Source of the DNA: Stenomitos rutilans HA7619-LM2
Lineage (GTDB): Bacteria; Cyanobacteriota; Cyanobacteriia; Leptolyngbyales; Leptolyngbyaceae
Length of the DNA: 64,000 nucleotides
Assembly: GCA_019358945.1 (NCBI GenBank)
Contig: JAHHIE010000001.1
Location: 124,001-188,000 of the forward strand
Reading direction: 5' to 3'
The notes beneath the pieces were generated by a model. That model made no database searches. It was given only the letters and a program-made list of their open reading frames with translations, and was not told the DNA's origin. Both the position numbers and the translations under genes were made by a program. Positions 45,427-49,015 of the stretch are shown here, piece after piece. Positions within the stretch are counted from its first letter, which is position 1, and every line of letters starts with the position of its first letter.

Positions 45427-46425
45427 ATGAGTTGGCACGAAGATTTTTCTGAGGCAGACTATCAGTACTACTGGCATCTGCCACCCGAAGCACGCAGCGA
45501 GATGCTGGCGGATGAGCAGATTGGCGAATCTCTCAAGGCGTTGTTGCTTTACCAGCAGGGACGACAGGCGTTAGAGAGCAATGATGTGAACACTGCGATC
45601 GCCTGCTTTGTGGAGGTGCTAGCGCTCAAGCCGGGTTGGCACGATGGCTGGGCAGGACATGCTGCCGCGCTCATCAAAGCAGGTGAACACGAAGGCGCGA
45701 TCGCCAGTTGCACGCGGGCTTTGGAATTAGCACCAGAGCATGCAGAAGCCTGGAGTCTGCAAGGTATAGCGCTCTCTCGCCTGGGACGGTACGAAGCATC
45801 AGCGAACAGTTGCGATCGCGCCTTGGAGCTACAGCCCGACGACCAGCAAGCCTGGAGTACGCTCAGCGATGCGTTGAATCATCAAGGACGCTACACCGAA
45901 GCCGTCGTTAGCTATGACAAAGCGTTGGCACTAAGCTCGGATGCCCCTTTTCTTTGGGGACATCGGGGCACAGCACTGCAAAAGTTGGGTCGTTACGAGG
46001 AAGCGATCGCCAGCTACGACAAGCTCTTACAGGCAGAGCCAACCCGCTACAAGCTCTGGCATCTGCGTGGTCTGGCAATGCGAAAGCTACGTCGCTTTGA
46101 TGCTGCGATCGCCAGCTTTGACGAAGCACTCACCCATCAACCAGATTTCTACCCAGCAATCCGCAGCAAGCTATTTACCTTGTTCCAAGCAGGGCAATTA
46201 TGGCGCTATGTTATGGGCGACAAAACACTCGCTGAACGGGGCAACTTGATGAACGACCTACGGCATGTGCTGGATTCTGTCGTCAAAACGAAACTACCAA
46301 CGCTCGTGGTCATCGCACTGGTTGTGCTTTCCAGTACCCATAGTCGGGTTACAGCGCTAGCGATCGCAGGCGTGTTTCTGCTCATTGCCGCGATCGGCGA
46401 TCTCATCGCTGAGTCACAGAGGTAG
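45427..46425 (+). CDS. TPR protein with C-terminal membrane segments
   Basis: 332 residues from ATG 45427 (an upstream ATG at 45412 is possible). About six consecutive TPR units occupy residues 45-255, with canonical GRYEEAIASYDKLLQAEPTRYKLWHLRG-type repeats. The C-terminus has two hydrophobic helices (LPTLVVIALVVLSS and VTALAIAGVFLLIAAIGDLI), so the TPR domain is probably tethered to a membrane on the cytoplasmic side. Protein partner unknown. Confidence 0.8.
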   Translation: MSWHEDFSEADYQYYWHLPPEARSEMLADEQIGESLKALLLYQQGRQALESNDVNTAIACFVEVLALKPGWHDGWAGHAAALIKAGEHEGAIASCTRALELAPEHAEAWSLQGIALSRLGRYEASANSCDRALELQPDDQQAWSTLSDALNHQGRYTEAVVSYDKALALSSDAPFLWGHRGTALQKLGRYEEAIASYDKLLQAEPTRYKLWHLRGLAMRKLRRFDAAIASFDEALTHQPDFYPAIRSKLFTLFQAGQLWRYVMGDKTLAERGNLMNDLRHVLDSVVKTKLPTLVVIALVVLSSTHSRVTALAIAGVFLLIAAIGDLIAESQR

Positions 46426-46435
46426 CGGTTTTTGA

Positions 46436-46653
46436 AGGCAGAGGGCAGAAGGTAGAGGGCACAGAAGGGGCAGGGGAAGCAGAGGAAGCAAGGGAAGCGG
46501 AGGGAGCAGCACTAACTCAAAACTTCTACGCTGACCGCTGATAGCTGATAGCTCTTTCGCTCAAAACTCAAAACTTCTACACCCACCGCTGACGGCTCTT
46601 TCACTCAAAACTCAAAACTCAAAACTTCTACACCGACCGCTGCTCGCTGAAAA
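46436..46653. repeat. Repeat array with composite modules
   Basis: GCAGAAG and GGGGAAGCAG units, then three rounds of [CTCAAAACTTCTACRC-CGACCGCTGATAGCTCTTT]-like modules and ACTCAAA arrays. The same module recurs at 29935-30060 (opposite strand) and 41819-41865. Confidence 0.85.
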
Positions 46654-46660
46654 TTTAACG

Positions 46661-47983
46661 TTAAGAGTCAGGAGGTTGCTTCGGTGCTTTGTCCTCTTGC
46701 GATCGTGCGTTGGGGTGCGTGGCGAGACTGACTCCTTTTTCTACCAAAACCCTGGGATACTTGCTGAGACCAATGCGCTGAGCGCGGTAGATGCCTGCAT
46801 GACCCGAAAAGATGTAGCTCACGACACAGGCAATGCCAGCGAAGGCTCCGGCAGGCAGCCCAAACAGCTCCATTGCCATAATCGTTGAAGCCAGTGGGGT
46901 ATTGGCAGCGGCCCCAAATACGGCGACAAAGCCCATGCCTGCAAGTAAAGACGTGGGCAGTGGCAGAACGATCGACAGCGCATTGCCTAACGTGGCACCG
47001 ATGTAAAACAATGGGGTGACTTCGCCGCCCTTAAACCCAGCGCCTAAAGTGAGTGCCGTAAAGGCGAGCTTGGCAGCAAAATCCCAGGGTGGGAGTTGCG
47101 TCTGAAACGCTTCCACAATGGTAGGAATGCCGAGACCAATATATTTTGTCGTGCCCACTGCCCAAACTGCGATCGCCACCATGCTGCCACCAATCAGAGG
47201 ACGCAACGGTGGATATGCAATTTTAGACTTAAAGATCTGCCCAATTGTGTGGGTCGCTTCGGCAAACAGAAGTGCTACTAGACCAAACACGGCACCCGCA
47301 AGCACCGCTGACAAGAGAGCGGCAGAGCCATCGGAAAAATCTCCCAGGCTGAGTAAGGGGATGCTTGTCAGGCGATAGTCCGTATGGTGAATGCCCCACT
47401 TCAGGGTGACGTAATCGCCCACGATCGCCGCCACCGTGCAGGGAAACAACCCGTCGTAGCGAAGCTTGCCGATCGTCAGCACTTCTAGCCCAAAAACGGC
47501 CCCAGCTAGCGGTGTGCCAAAGACGGACGCAAACCCTCCACTTAGCCCTGTCATCAAAAGGATGCGGCGATCGGCCCCCTTGAGTTGCAACAGCTTGGTG
47601 AGTTGATCCGCCAGGGATGCCCCCATCTGTAATGCGGTGCCTTCTCGCCCTGCAGAGCCACCAAACAAGTGGGTCATGACCGTCCCTAAAAGCACTAGGG
47701 GAGCCATGCGGAGGGAAATGGTCTCCCTGGGATTGTGGATCTCCTCCAGTAAGAGGTTGTTGCCCGCTTCGACCGATCGACCAAAGTAGTAATAGATCAA
47801 GCCACTCAGTAGCCCACCCAACGGCAGCAAGGCAATAACCCAGTGATGCGCTTCTCGCCAATCGGTGGCCCATTCTAATGAAGCTAACAGTGCCGCCGAG
47901 GCCGTTCCGCAAAGGACACCTGCTACTGTGGCGATGGCTAGCCATTTTGCAGTTTGCGGTAGGGCAAAAACTTGTTCGATCAT
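46661..47983 (-). CDS. CLC-type fluoride/proton antiporter (CLC-F)
   Basis: 440 residues, about ten or more membrane segments, CLC family. The classic GSGIP anion motif is replaced by AGNNLLLEEIH (about residues 73-83), and GSAGREGTALQMG with the gating glutamate (E114) is present; both are features I associate with the fluoride-exporting CLC-F branch. GAGFKGGEVTPLFYIG is the second anion-site region. The upstream leader forms a fluoride riboswitch, which supports this strongly. ATG 47983 follows GGAGAG; a TTG at 48007 is less likely. Confidence 0.88.
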   Translation of the reverse strand: MIEQVFALPQTAKWLAIATVAGVLCGTASAALLASLEWATDWREAHHWVIALLPLGGLLSGLIYYYFGRSVEAGNNLLLEEIHNPRETISLRMAPLVLLGTVMTHLFGGSAGREGTALQMGASLADQLTKLLQLKGADRRILLMTGLSGGFASVFGTPLAGAVFGLEVLTIGKLRYDGLFPCTVAAIVGDYVTLKWGIHHTDYRLTSIPLLSLGDFSDGSAALLSAVLAGAVFGLVALLFAEATHTIGQIFKSKIAYPPLRPLIGGSMVAIAVWAVGTTKYIGLGIPTIVEAFQTQLPPWDFAAKLAFTALTLGAGFKGGEVTPLFYIGATLGNALSIVLPLPTSLLAGMGFVAVFGAAANTPLASTIMAMELFGLPAGAFAGIACVVSYIFSGHAGIYRAQRIGLSKYPRVLVEKGVSLATHPNARSQEDKAPKQPPDS

Positions 47984-48023
47984 CCGCACTGCTCTCCAAA
48001 AATCCAATAGTCAACACTTCACA

Positions 48024-48044
48024 GATGCTTTTTAACAAAGCATC
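48024..48044 (-). promoter_or_regulatory. Hairpin in riboswitch expression platform
   Basis: An 8-bp stem (GATGCTTT/AAAGCATC) with a five-base loop between the riboswitch and the CLC-F start codon. CTTCA before it and TGAAG after it can extend the pairing. No U-run follows, so control of translation or antitermination is more likely than simple termination. Confidence 0.55.
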
Positions 48045-48055
48045 GATCGAACGAT

Positions 48056-48140
48056 GAAGTAGAAACTATCAGCCTTGAAGGCAGTTCTCTGACTGTGCTA
48101 AAAGGAAGCCTGTGTCAGAAGGCGAGTTCCATCGCCCTGA
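48056..48140 (-). ncRNA. Fluoride riboswitch (crcB RNA)
   Basis: On the minus strand, GGGCGATGG-AACTCGCC (48137-48121) is followed, after a variable arm closed by CTGAC/GTCAG, by AACTGCC (48086-48080), a short loop and GGCTGATAGTTTCTACT (48074-48058). These are the conserved blocks and order of fluoride aptamers, including the pseudoknot strands. It lies about 70 bp upstream of the CLC-F gene, as known for fluoride-resistance genes. Fluoride binding should turn expression on. Confidence 0.88.
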
Positions 48141-48262
48141 GGTGAAATATAGCAAGACCTGTAGGCTTTTACAAGCAAAAAACTTCTTGATTAGGAGGCA
48201 GGGGGTAAAAGGTAAAAGGCAGAAGGTAAAAAGTAGAAGGCGGTAACTGAGTAGCCGTTGTG

Positions 48263-48490
48263 TTAGAGAGACTCAAATTGAGCGGTAAAGCCTTCTAGCG
48301 TCATGCACTCATCTTGAAAGGCTTCAGCATCGCTCACATCGTCTAACTCAAACGTCATGATGCGCCGTTCATCGTCTTTCATCTTTTTAGTCGAAAGCGG
48401 TTTTACGGCATACTTCGCCACGATCGCGTTAAACGCAGTCGCCGCCTTGCGCCAGCTTTCGGCAGAACAATAAACCGTTACAAGCCACAT
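48263..48490 (-). CDS. Small conserved protein
   Basis: 75 residues: WLVTVYCSAESWRKAATAFNAIVAKYAVKP, then a charged KKMKDDERR turn and FELDDVSDAEAFQDECM. Predicted as a small alpha-beta fold. No known family name. It lies upstream of the fluoride riboswitch on the same strand but is likely a separate transcript. Repeats of the GCAGAAG type lie downstream (48200-48245). Confidence 0.6.
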   Translation of the reverse strand: MWLVTVYCSAESWRKAATAFNAIVAKYAVKPLSTKKMKDDERRIMTFELDDVSDAEAFQDECMTLEGFTAQFESL

Positions 48491-48589
48491 GATGAGTCAG
48501 CCTCCTGCATACATTCGTCATCGTAGGCGATTCAGGTCGCCACTTGATACACAGTGCGCGCTTTTCTTGCTTCTACTCAGCAGCCACGT

Positions 48590-49015
48590 TTACGGTAAAG
48601 GTTGCAAATCTGGCTCAACCCAATCTGTGCGCGCTTCCCACGACATCAAGCGATCGCGGCTGTAGTAGTGGAGCGGCAACTGTGGATCACTGCATCGCTG
48701 GATGAACTGATTGACCTCATCCAACGCCAGGGCAGAGATGCGCTGCTCTGCGAGGTACCACAGCCCAATCCAAAGCCAGAAGAGGGTAATGGTTTCGTGA
48801 TAGCCGCTGTTTTTTGTTTGCTGTATGCCCATTGCCGCGTTATACCGCTGAATGCCTTCGCGCATGCAGTCGATCGCCTGTGAAGGCTTGTGATGCACCA
48901 AATACCACAGAGCAAGGGTGAGATGTGCGGTATGAGTCCAGCACGATCGAGGCAACGTACAGCTCTCGAAGGCTGCCACTAACGCTTCAATCTCGTCGAT
49001 TGTTCGATACGTCAT
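48590..49015 (-). CDS. Conserved helical protein of unknown function
   Basis: 141 residues from ATG 49015 (TYRTIDEIEALVAAFESCTLPRSCWTHTAHLTLALWYL). All-helical with many aromatic residues and a conserved-looking WTHTAHL motif. I recall this family from many bacteria as hypothetical. The longer frame to 49108 overlaps the neighbouring gene and is unlikely. It follows the alr0857-like gene on the same strand. Confidence 0.65.
   Translation of the reverse strand: MTYRTIDEIEALVAAFESCTLPRSCWTHTAHLTLALWYLVHHKPSQAIDCMREGIQRYNAAMGIQQTKNSGYHETITLFWLWIGLWYLAEQRISALALDEVNQFIQRCSDPQLPLHYYSRDRLMSWEARTDWVEPDLQPLP

Follow-up and report, generated by a model that had tools for sequence, protein, structure and literature searches.

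A predicted fluoride riboswitch with an extra arm upstream of a probable CLC-type fluoride exporter gene in the cyanobacterium Stenomitos rutilans

The fluoride riboswitches of the Bacillus cereus and Thermotoga petrophila type (crcB motif, RF01734) are the closest described relatives of the switch reported here, which shares with them the order of the core elements, the pseudoknot, the position upstream of a gene for fluoride export and, as would be expected, the ON logic. Unlike these, it carries one further hairpin, which separates P1 from the AACNG strand. In addition, the B. cereus and T. petrophila switches exchange six pseudoknot nucleotides, as stated in a section of a 2026 survey (PMC13273304), whereas the alternative pairing predicted here takes the second stem together with the pseudoknot strand. 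The same section already reports that certain switching hairpins reach into the second stem (PMC13273304). The functional variants switching through stem P3 that it describes (PMC13273304) are similar to our case in that here, too, the predicted hairpin extends into both pseudoknot and second stem, but those variants act in a transcription assay whereas the helix described here ends on the ribosome-binding site. Control of translation is presumed for some fluoride riboswitches, according to an excerpt of PMC8814607, and for those of Burkholderia and Pseudomonas syringae the survey, in the part cited here, reports no fluoride-dependent termination in vitro (PMC13273304). By analogy with these translational switches, rather than from sequences set side by side, control at the level of the ribosome would be expected in S. 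rutilans as well.

To find a CLC-F gene preceded by a fluoride riboswitch is nothing unusual, and the arrangement is a known kind of fluoride defence. Each element of the locus is already known, and what is added here is the combination with the arm and an output that apparently changes from one close relative to another. The titles and the opening lines of the abstracts in the fluoride-riboswitch literature surveyed, a scope that does not extend to the original papers (Baker 2012, Ren 2012, Stockbridge 2012), do not mention an extra arm.

The aptamer and the gene that it precedes

In the window, i.e., the whole stretch of 64,000 nucleotides of S. rutilans DNA that was analyzed, the covariance model RF01734 has a sole match at gathering (34 bits), with an E-value of 2.5e-7 and spanning the complete model (positions 1-64 of 64; Table 1). 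This search confirms the initial annotation, which had placed a fluoride aptamer with its conserved blocks in order in the minus-strand leader of the gene, and the variable arm that had been proposed in addition is borne out by an insertion of 31 nt relative to the RF01734 consensus, containing the arm stem. The spacing proposed then agrees with the 69 nt that separate the end of the aptamer from the ATG at 47983 (45 nt in the case of the alternative TTG at 48007), a leader position as is usual for fluoride riboswitches, whereas its limits had to be revised, as the aptamer reaches 48145, beyond 48140, and the open reading frame probably starts at 47983. Six pairs, one of them G-U, can form between the P1 loop and the 3' strand (GGAACT/AGTTTC). 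A promoter-like site ends one base before the aptamer match and would have the transcript begin close to the aptamer's 5' end. This is suggestive only, as the consensus scan of 46400-48600 found one such site with 1.3 expected by chance and a loose version of the pattern fits 14 of 34 arm-less leaders; by eye, a TG-N-TA- or TGGCATAAT-type element is seen, with variations, at a similar distance before P1 in the ten arm-bearing loci considered below. No match was found when the leader was searched against plasmids. Short tandem repeats, with 7-nt units GGTAAAA and ACTCAAA and a 51-nt unit, flank the clcF unit (48196-48241 and 46434-46650).

Table 1. Features of the clcF locus of S. rutilans (positions are those of the window)
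Feature	Position	Strand	Basis
Promoter-like site TTGTAA-17 nt-TATATT, TG ahead of second hexamer	48146..48174	-	Consensus scan
Fluoride riboswitch aptamer	48053..48145	-	RF01734 covariance model, 39.2 bits
P1 hairpin GGCG/CGCC, with pseudoknot 5' strand GGAACT (48130-48125) in loop	48121..48136	-	RF01734 match and pair count by element
Extra arm between P1 and AACTG strand, stem TCTGAC/GTCAGA (48119-48114 with 48093-48088)	48088..48119	-	Insertion relative to Rfam consensus
Second aptamer stem GCC/GGC (P3 or P2, naming varies among papers)	48072..48082	-	RF01734 match and pair count
Pseudoknot 3' strand AGTTTC	48062..48067	-	Pairing capacity with 48130-48125, one G-U
Apical hairpin GATGCTTT/AAAGCATC inside alternative hairpin	48024..48044	-	Predicted fold
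Switching strand, predicted to pair with aptamer 3' half 48085-48064 (22 pairs); contains Shine-Dalgarno	47988..48012	-	Duplex and lowest-energy fold
Shine-Dalgarno GGAGAG, 8 nt before ATG 47983	47992..47997	-	Sequence and modelled ensemble
clcF, probable CLC-type fluoride/proton antiporter, 440 aa	46661..47983	-	PF00654, 228.4 bits; PDB 6d0j, 187.9 bits

The ATG at 47983 looks the better start of clcF because GGAGAG lies 8 nt upstream of it, in preference to the TTG at 48007 given in the list of open reading frames. In Pfam the protein belongs to the general chloride-channel family (Voltage_CLC), and its matches to two chloride-named NCBIfam models remain far under their cut-offs (89.3 versus 482 bits and 53.3 versus 350). 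The best relative of solved structure is the CLC-type F-/H+ antiporter 6d0j, with 187.9 bits as compared to 39.4 bits for the best ClcA entry, in an alignment covering residues 17-404. GREG contains the external gating glutamate of CLC proteins, the glutamate of GGEV counts as a criterion for CLC-F, and the serine of GSGIP coordinates chloride in canonical chloride CLCs, a place at which GNNLL has an asparagine. As in the CLC-F F-/H+ antiporters (6d0j family, EriC-F), GREG and GGEV are kept in the window protein (here GGEVTP), whereas the anion motif differs between GMNLV with a methionine in 6d0j and GNNLL with an asparagine here. GNNLL, singled out by the initial annotation as a departure from chloride channels, was found again, also in three of three clcF relatives aligned. 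By itself this motif would say little about the ion, and it is the overall similarity of the protein, together with the riboswitch, that supports the earlier assignment of fluoride as the physiological ion, which we regard as a strong inference from sequence. The annotation would then likely move from "voltage-gated chloride channel" to fluoride exporter.

A genome search identified four other CLC genes in S. rutilans. L066 gives 176.7 bits to Sll0855, which we take to be a chloride-type CLC, and 58.7 to 6d0j, L067 gives 144.7 bits to 1kpl and 50.1 to 6d0j, L069 gives 44.7 bits to ClcA and, at a small margin, 41.5 to 6d0j, and L070 matches Sll0855 only. No match for CrcB/FluC was found in the genome, which is 99.9% complete, and the riboswitch and clcF are likely a fluoride defence of a cyanobacterium in which CrcB/FluC was not found. 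The search of the genome with RF01734, in which 150 of 961 first-look candidates were scored and weak ones may be missed, returned two matches, the one described above alone being over the cut-off. The other (L002:1501-1592, 25 bits) was rejected as a working riboswitch, as its P1 loop does not, by eye, pair with the 3' strand; the same-strand open reading frames of at least 25 aa starting at 1590-2000 downstream of it are of 42 and 31 aa only, so that no long gene follows on this strand.

Aptamers that carry the arm

Ten arm-bearing aptamers were compared, i.e., the one of the window and those of loci L003, L046, L103, L104, L004, L005, L007, L123, and L125, with L105 and L106 excluded as repeats of L003 and L046. 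The number of independent cases is below ten, given that L046 has nearly the same aptamer as L103, that L123 closely resembles L125, and that L004, L005, and L007 are alike. Pairs were tallied by element, with five arm pairs and the sixth one of the window (C-G) uncounted; MAFFT misplaces the long arm of the window. The pairs of P1, the second stem, and the pseudoknot are canonical in all ten (G-U counted), pair 3 of P1 varying between C-G, U-G, and U-A. Arm pairs 1-4 are canonical in 10/10, with A-U instead of G-C at pair 4 in the near-identical L046 and L103, and pair 5 is A-C in two of the ten. The pseudoknot 3' strand AGTTTC is identical in all of them, as the pattern employed for collecting them requires; since this pattern fixes much of the base of the arm as well, the constancy of both is partly a matter of choice. 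By eye, arm-less clcF-linked aptamers mostly have GGAGCT/GGCTCC for the pseudoknot and arm-bearing ones mostly GAAACT/AGTTTC, i.e., the pairing is preserved with different letters in the two groups.

An arm and the strand AGTTTC are also present in L064, which is of the same family and lies outside the pattern. In L092 (G057), of another family, an insertion of 27 nt at the junction between P1 and the AACNG strand is accompanied by the strand ACTCC and a different pseudoknot sequence, and its arm might perhaps be an independent gain. Since arm-less relatives mostly have GGCTCC, L064 again AGTTTC, and L092 ACTCC, arm and AGTTTC together look like a subfamily of the fluoride aptamer. When 77 aptamers were surveyed for the length inserted at the arm junction (3 unparsed; L058 and L090 arm-less by eye, L095 wrongly cut), six had at least 8 nt, among them L064 and L092 from outside the set of ten. 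The arm pattern is present in 7 of 388 genomes of the class, the own genome included, and lies within an aptamer in five of them (G000, G025, G116, G209, and G215), matches L121 (G122) and L122 (G160) having been dropped, the former as it is not aptamer-like and the latter with identical matched letters. L104 (G113) and L064 (G025) bear an arm yet escape the pattern.

Alternative pairing of the 3' half and its predicted output

At its lowest energy, the leader is predicted to fold into a single long hairpin that pairs the aptamer's 3' half with the stretch of the ribosome-binding site (z -2.66, 2 of 200 shuffles as good), and an apical hairpin similar to that of the window is seen by eye in L003, L046, L103, and L104. 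With the 105 nt downstream, the 3' half forms a predicted duplex of -22.6 kcal/mol, a stability reached by 3 dinucleotide shuffles in a run of 500 and by 4 in a run of 1000, versus 519 of 1000 for the upstream control duplex. In the other arm-bearing leaders, the shuffles as good per 1000 amount to 12 (L103), 1 (L004), 3 (L005), 0 (L007), 44 (L123), 59 (L003), 62 (L046), 124 (L125), and 592 (L104). At 5%, six of the ten pass, L125 and L104 fail, and L003 and L046, at about 6%, are counted just outside after 19 and 27 in a run of 500 shuffles and the values above in the repeat with 1000. The control with upstream DNA passes in one of the ten, L104 (5/1000), which pairs better with this control than downstream and whose protein is 83% identical to that of the window. 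Among 34 distinct arm-less clcF-linked leaders (35 minus one with identical downstream DNA), pairing of the 3' half with downstream DNA above that of shuffles was found in none, whether all of the 3' half or a length-matched portion of 27 nt was used, and the upstream control passes in 1/34 (whole 3' half). With six of ten arm-bearing leaders passing as compared to none of the arm-less ones, the wide pairing appears to be a trait of the arm-bearing group, although some of its members lack it. Evidence for the alternative helix is this shuffle test; changes on both sides of the helix (7 of 27 columns) were not used, as the duplex program reports canonical pairs only and such changes arise partly by construction.

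In the modelled free ensemble, the bases of GGAGAG are unpaired with probabilities of 0, 0, 0, 0, 1, and 0, i.e., the ribosome-binding site is predicted to be paired in a fold that is exclusive with the aptamer. With the aptamer imposed, the values become 0.16, 0.17, 0.93, 0.96, 0.14, and 0.05, four of the six bases staying mostly paired, as does the final base of the AUG, so that release is only partial in the model. In a calculation that leaves out pseudoknot, Mg2+, and fluoride, the fold constrained to contain the aptamer is less stable than the free one by 13 kcal/mol. Since the imposed aptamer has this cost before those contributions, the choice between the folds must, according to the model, be made during transcription, and such a choice has been studied for other fluoride riboswitches, as outlined in part of PMC11077080. 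In the presence of bound fluoride and Mg2+, the RNA would adopt P1, the pseudoknot, and the second stem, with the aptamer's 3' half occupied. Without fluoride, this half would pair with the switching strand and bury GGAGAG in the long hairpin, with translation off. Fluoride would turn translation on and the exporter would remove the fluoride.

Just past the helix, the window reads CGGATG in place of the U-run of an intrinsic terminator. A U-run follows the matching helix in L046, L103, L004, L005, and L007, in L005 after four A. In L123 and L125 (before a Usp gene), the matching helix, not above chance in L125, covers AAGGAGG just ahead of ACGATG, in L003 it covers a TTG aligned with the start of the window gene, and in L104 neither a U-run nor masking of the start region is seen after the helix. 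To judge from these predicted helices, some arm-bearing members probably act by termination and others by hiding the start region, the window being among the latter.

Could the same riboswitch and exporter in S. rutilans work by premature termination of transcription through the alternative hairpin? The U-runs of the five loci named above would favour this, as would the statement, in an extract of Weinberg 2010 (PMC2864571), that terminators overlap many crcB motifs. We nevertheless consider it unlikely, as the window helix runs into CGGATG, the only terminator-like site in the leader is a stem of 5 pairs (48056-48041) with the tail CTTTGTTAAA, and a terminator scan of 46400-48600 found 4 sites as compared to 2.5 expected by chance. 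Very improbable is a leader that is a decayed aptamer no longer binding fluoride, with the gene constitutive or otherwise controlled. Its 39.2 bits are low for a clcF-linked aptamer, 34 of the 35 arm-less ones reaching 44.1-58.5 and the remaining one (L042) 39.9, and G038 has a clcF without any RF01734 match, but the pairs of P1, second stem, and pseudoknot are all kept and other arm-bearing members score equally low (34.7-38.1 in L004, L005, L007, and L046), so that the low score may reflect the subfamily. Slightly less probable still would be a chloride CLC, transporting chloride, that lies by chance downstream of a fluoride aptamer. The general chloride-channel family in Pfam and the chloride-named models in NCBIfam, the latter matched far below cut-off, would be in line with it, whereas the much higher score to the F-/H+ antiporter than to ClcA, the different behaviour of the four paralogues from the own genome, and the asparagine of GNNLL in place of the GSG serine of canonical chloride CLCs, which paralogue L066 has (GSGVP), argue for fluoride.

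The explanation that we prefer, a fluoride riboswitch controlling a single CLC-type F-/H+ antiporter gene as a translational ON switch by means of an alternative hairpin, seems very likely as a whole. Regarding its parts, we are nearly certain of the aptamer together with a CLC-F, the ON direction in response to fluoride appears highly probable, and a translational rather than a transcriptional output is favoured with fair confidence. More tentatively, and with somewhat more doubt than conviction, we propose a distinct subclass of fluoride riboswitches that would combine an extra hairpin between P1 and AACNG, the pseudoknot strand AGUUUC, and the swapping of most of the 3' half into a long hairpin. 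Among close relatives, this same hairpin would have turned from an intrinsic terminator (L046, L103, L004, L005, and L007) into a mask of the ribosome-binding site or start codon (the window, L123, and more weakly L003 and L125). If true, the subclass would form a natural series in which a shift in riboswitch output can be followed, made up of closely related switches with a common aptamer that differ in acting by termination or on translation, and the discussion of the 2026 survey, as far as it is cited here, points to the comparison of outputs among related switches as useful (PMC13273304).

Related clcF loci and their neighbours

Among 51 related clcF loci from named genomes, which were picked with peptide patterns derived from the window protein, a choice biased to close relatives, 39 have RF01734 at gathering within 2.5 kb upstream (19/20, 13/20, and 7/11 in three batches, the third of which comprised, besides the 11 counted, 9 loci selected for their aptamer). 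The loci that lack it are L003, L026, L032, L033, L038-L041, L043, L045, L049, and L050; L003 carries the aptamer by pattern, the same stretch in G116 scoring 32.5 bits, just under the cut-off, and for L049 no upstream DNA was available. In the 388 genomes, RF01734 is found at E<=0.001 in 87 and over the cut-off in 69, with weak matches lost to the filters, and clcF at E 1e-100 or better in 20. L102, from G038 of the same genus, encodes a CLC-F 88% identical to that of the window and shows no RF01734 match upstream in searches that score part of the candidates. By eye, fragments resembling CGCCAAACCG and GGCTGA are present about 130 nt ahead of its ATG, and its switch may have decayed or been lost.

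In some loci more than 250 nt separate the aptamer from the clcF match, and several have an exchanger-like open reading frame there; that of L008, the one among them that was scanned with Pfam, is a Na+/H+ exchanger with a Usp domain between aptamer and clcF. In another genome, of the same genus as the window, the aptamer of L058 lies directly before such a Na+/H+ exchanger with a Usp domain. In G209, CrcB, clcF, and Usp genes are found together within 14 kb, clcF and the Usp gene each having its own aptamer in front. In Enterobacter cloacae, a Usp gene has been reported in an operon under a fluoride riboswitch, according to a portion of PMC5533749. Exchanger, Usp, and CrcB neighbours are ordinary members of fluoride regulons. 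Fluoride islands are seen in L129 (G025), where Pfam confirms two CrcB and DUF190, and in L130 (G209), where it confirms CrcB, clcF, and Usp, and in G025 transposase-like open reading frames follow one aptamer where G209 has clcF. Finally, L042, L043, and L045 from Burkholderiales encode CLC-F proteins 56-59% identical to the window protein, L042 also possessing the riboswitch, and this occurrence of CLC-F and riboswitch in Burkholderiales may be due to transfer between phyla.
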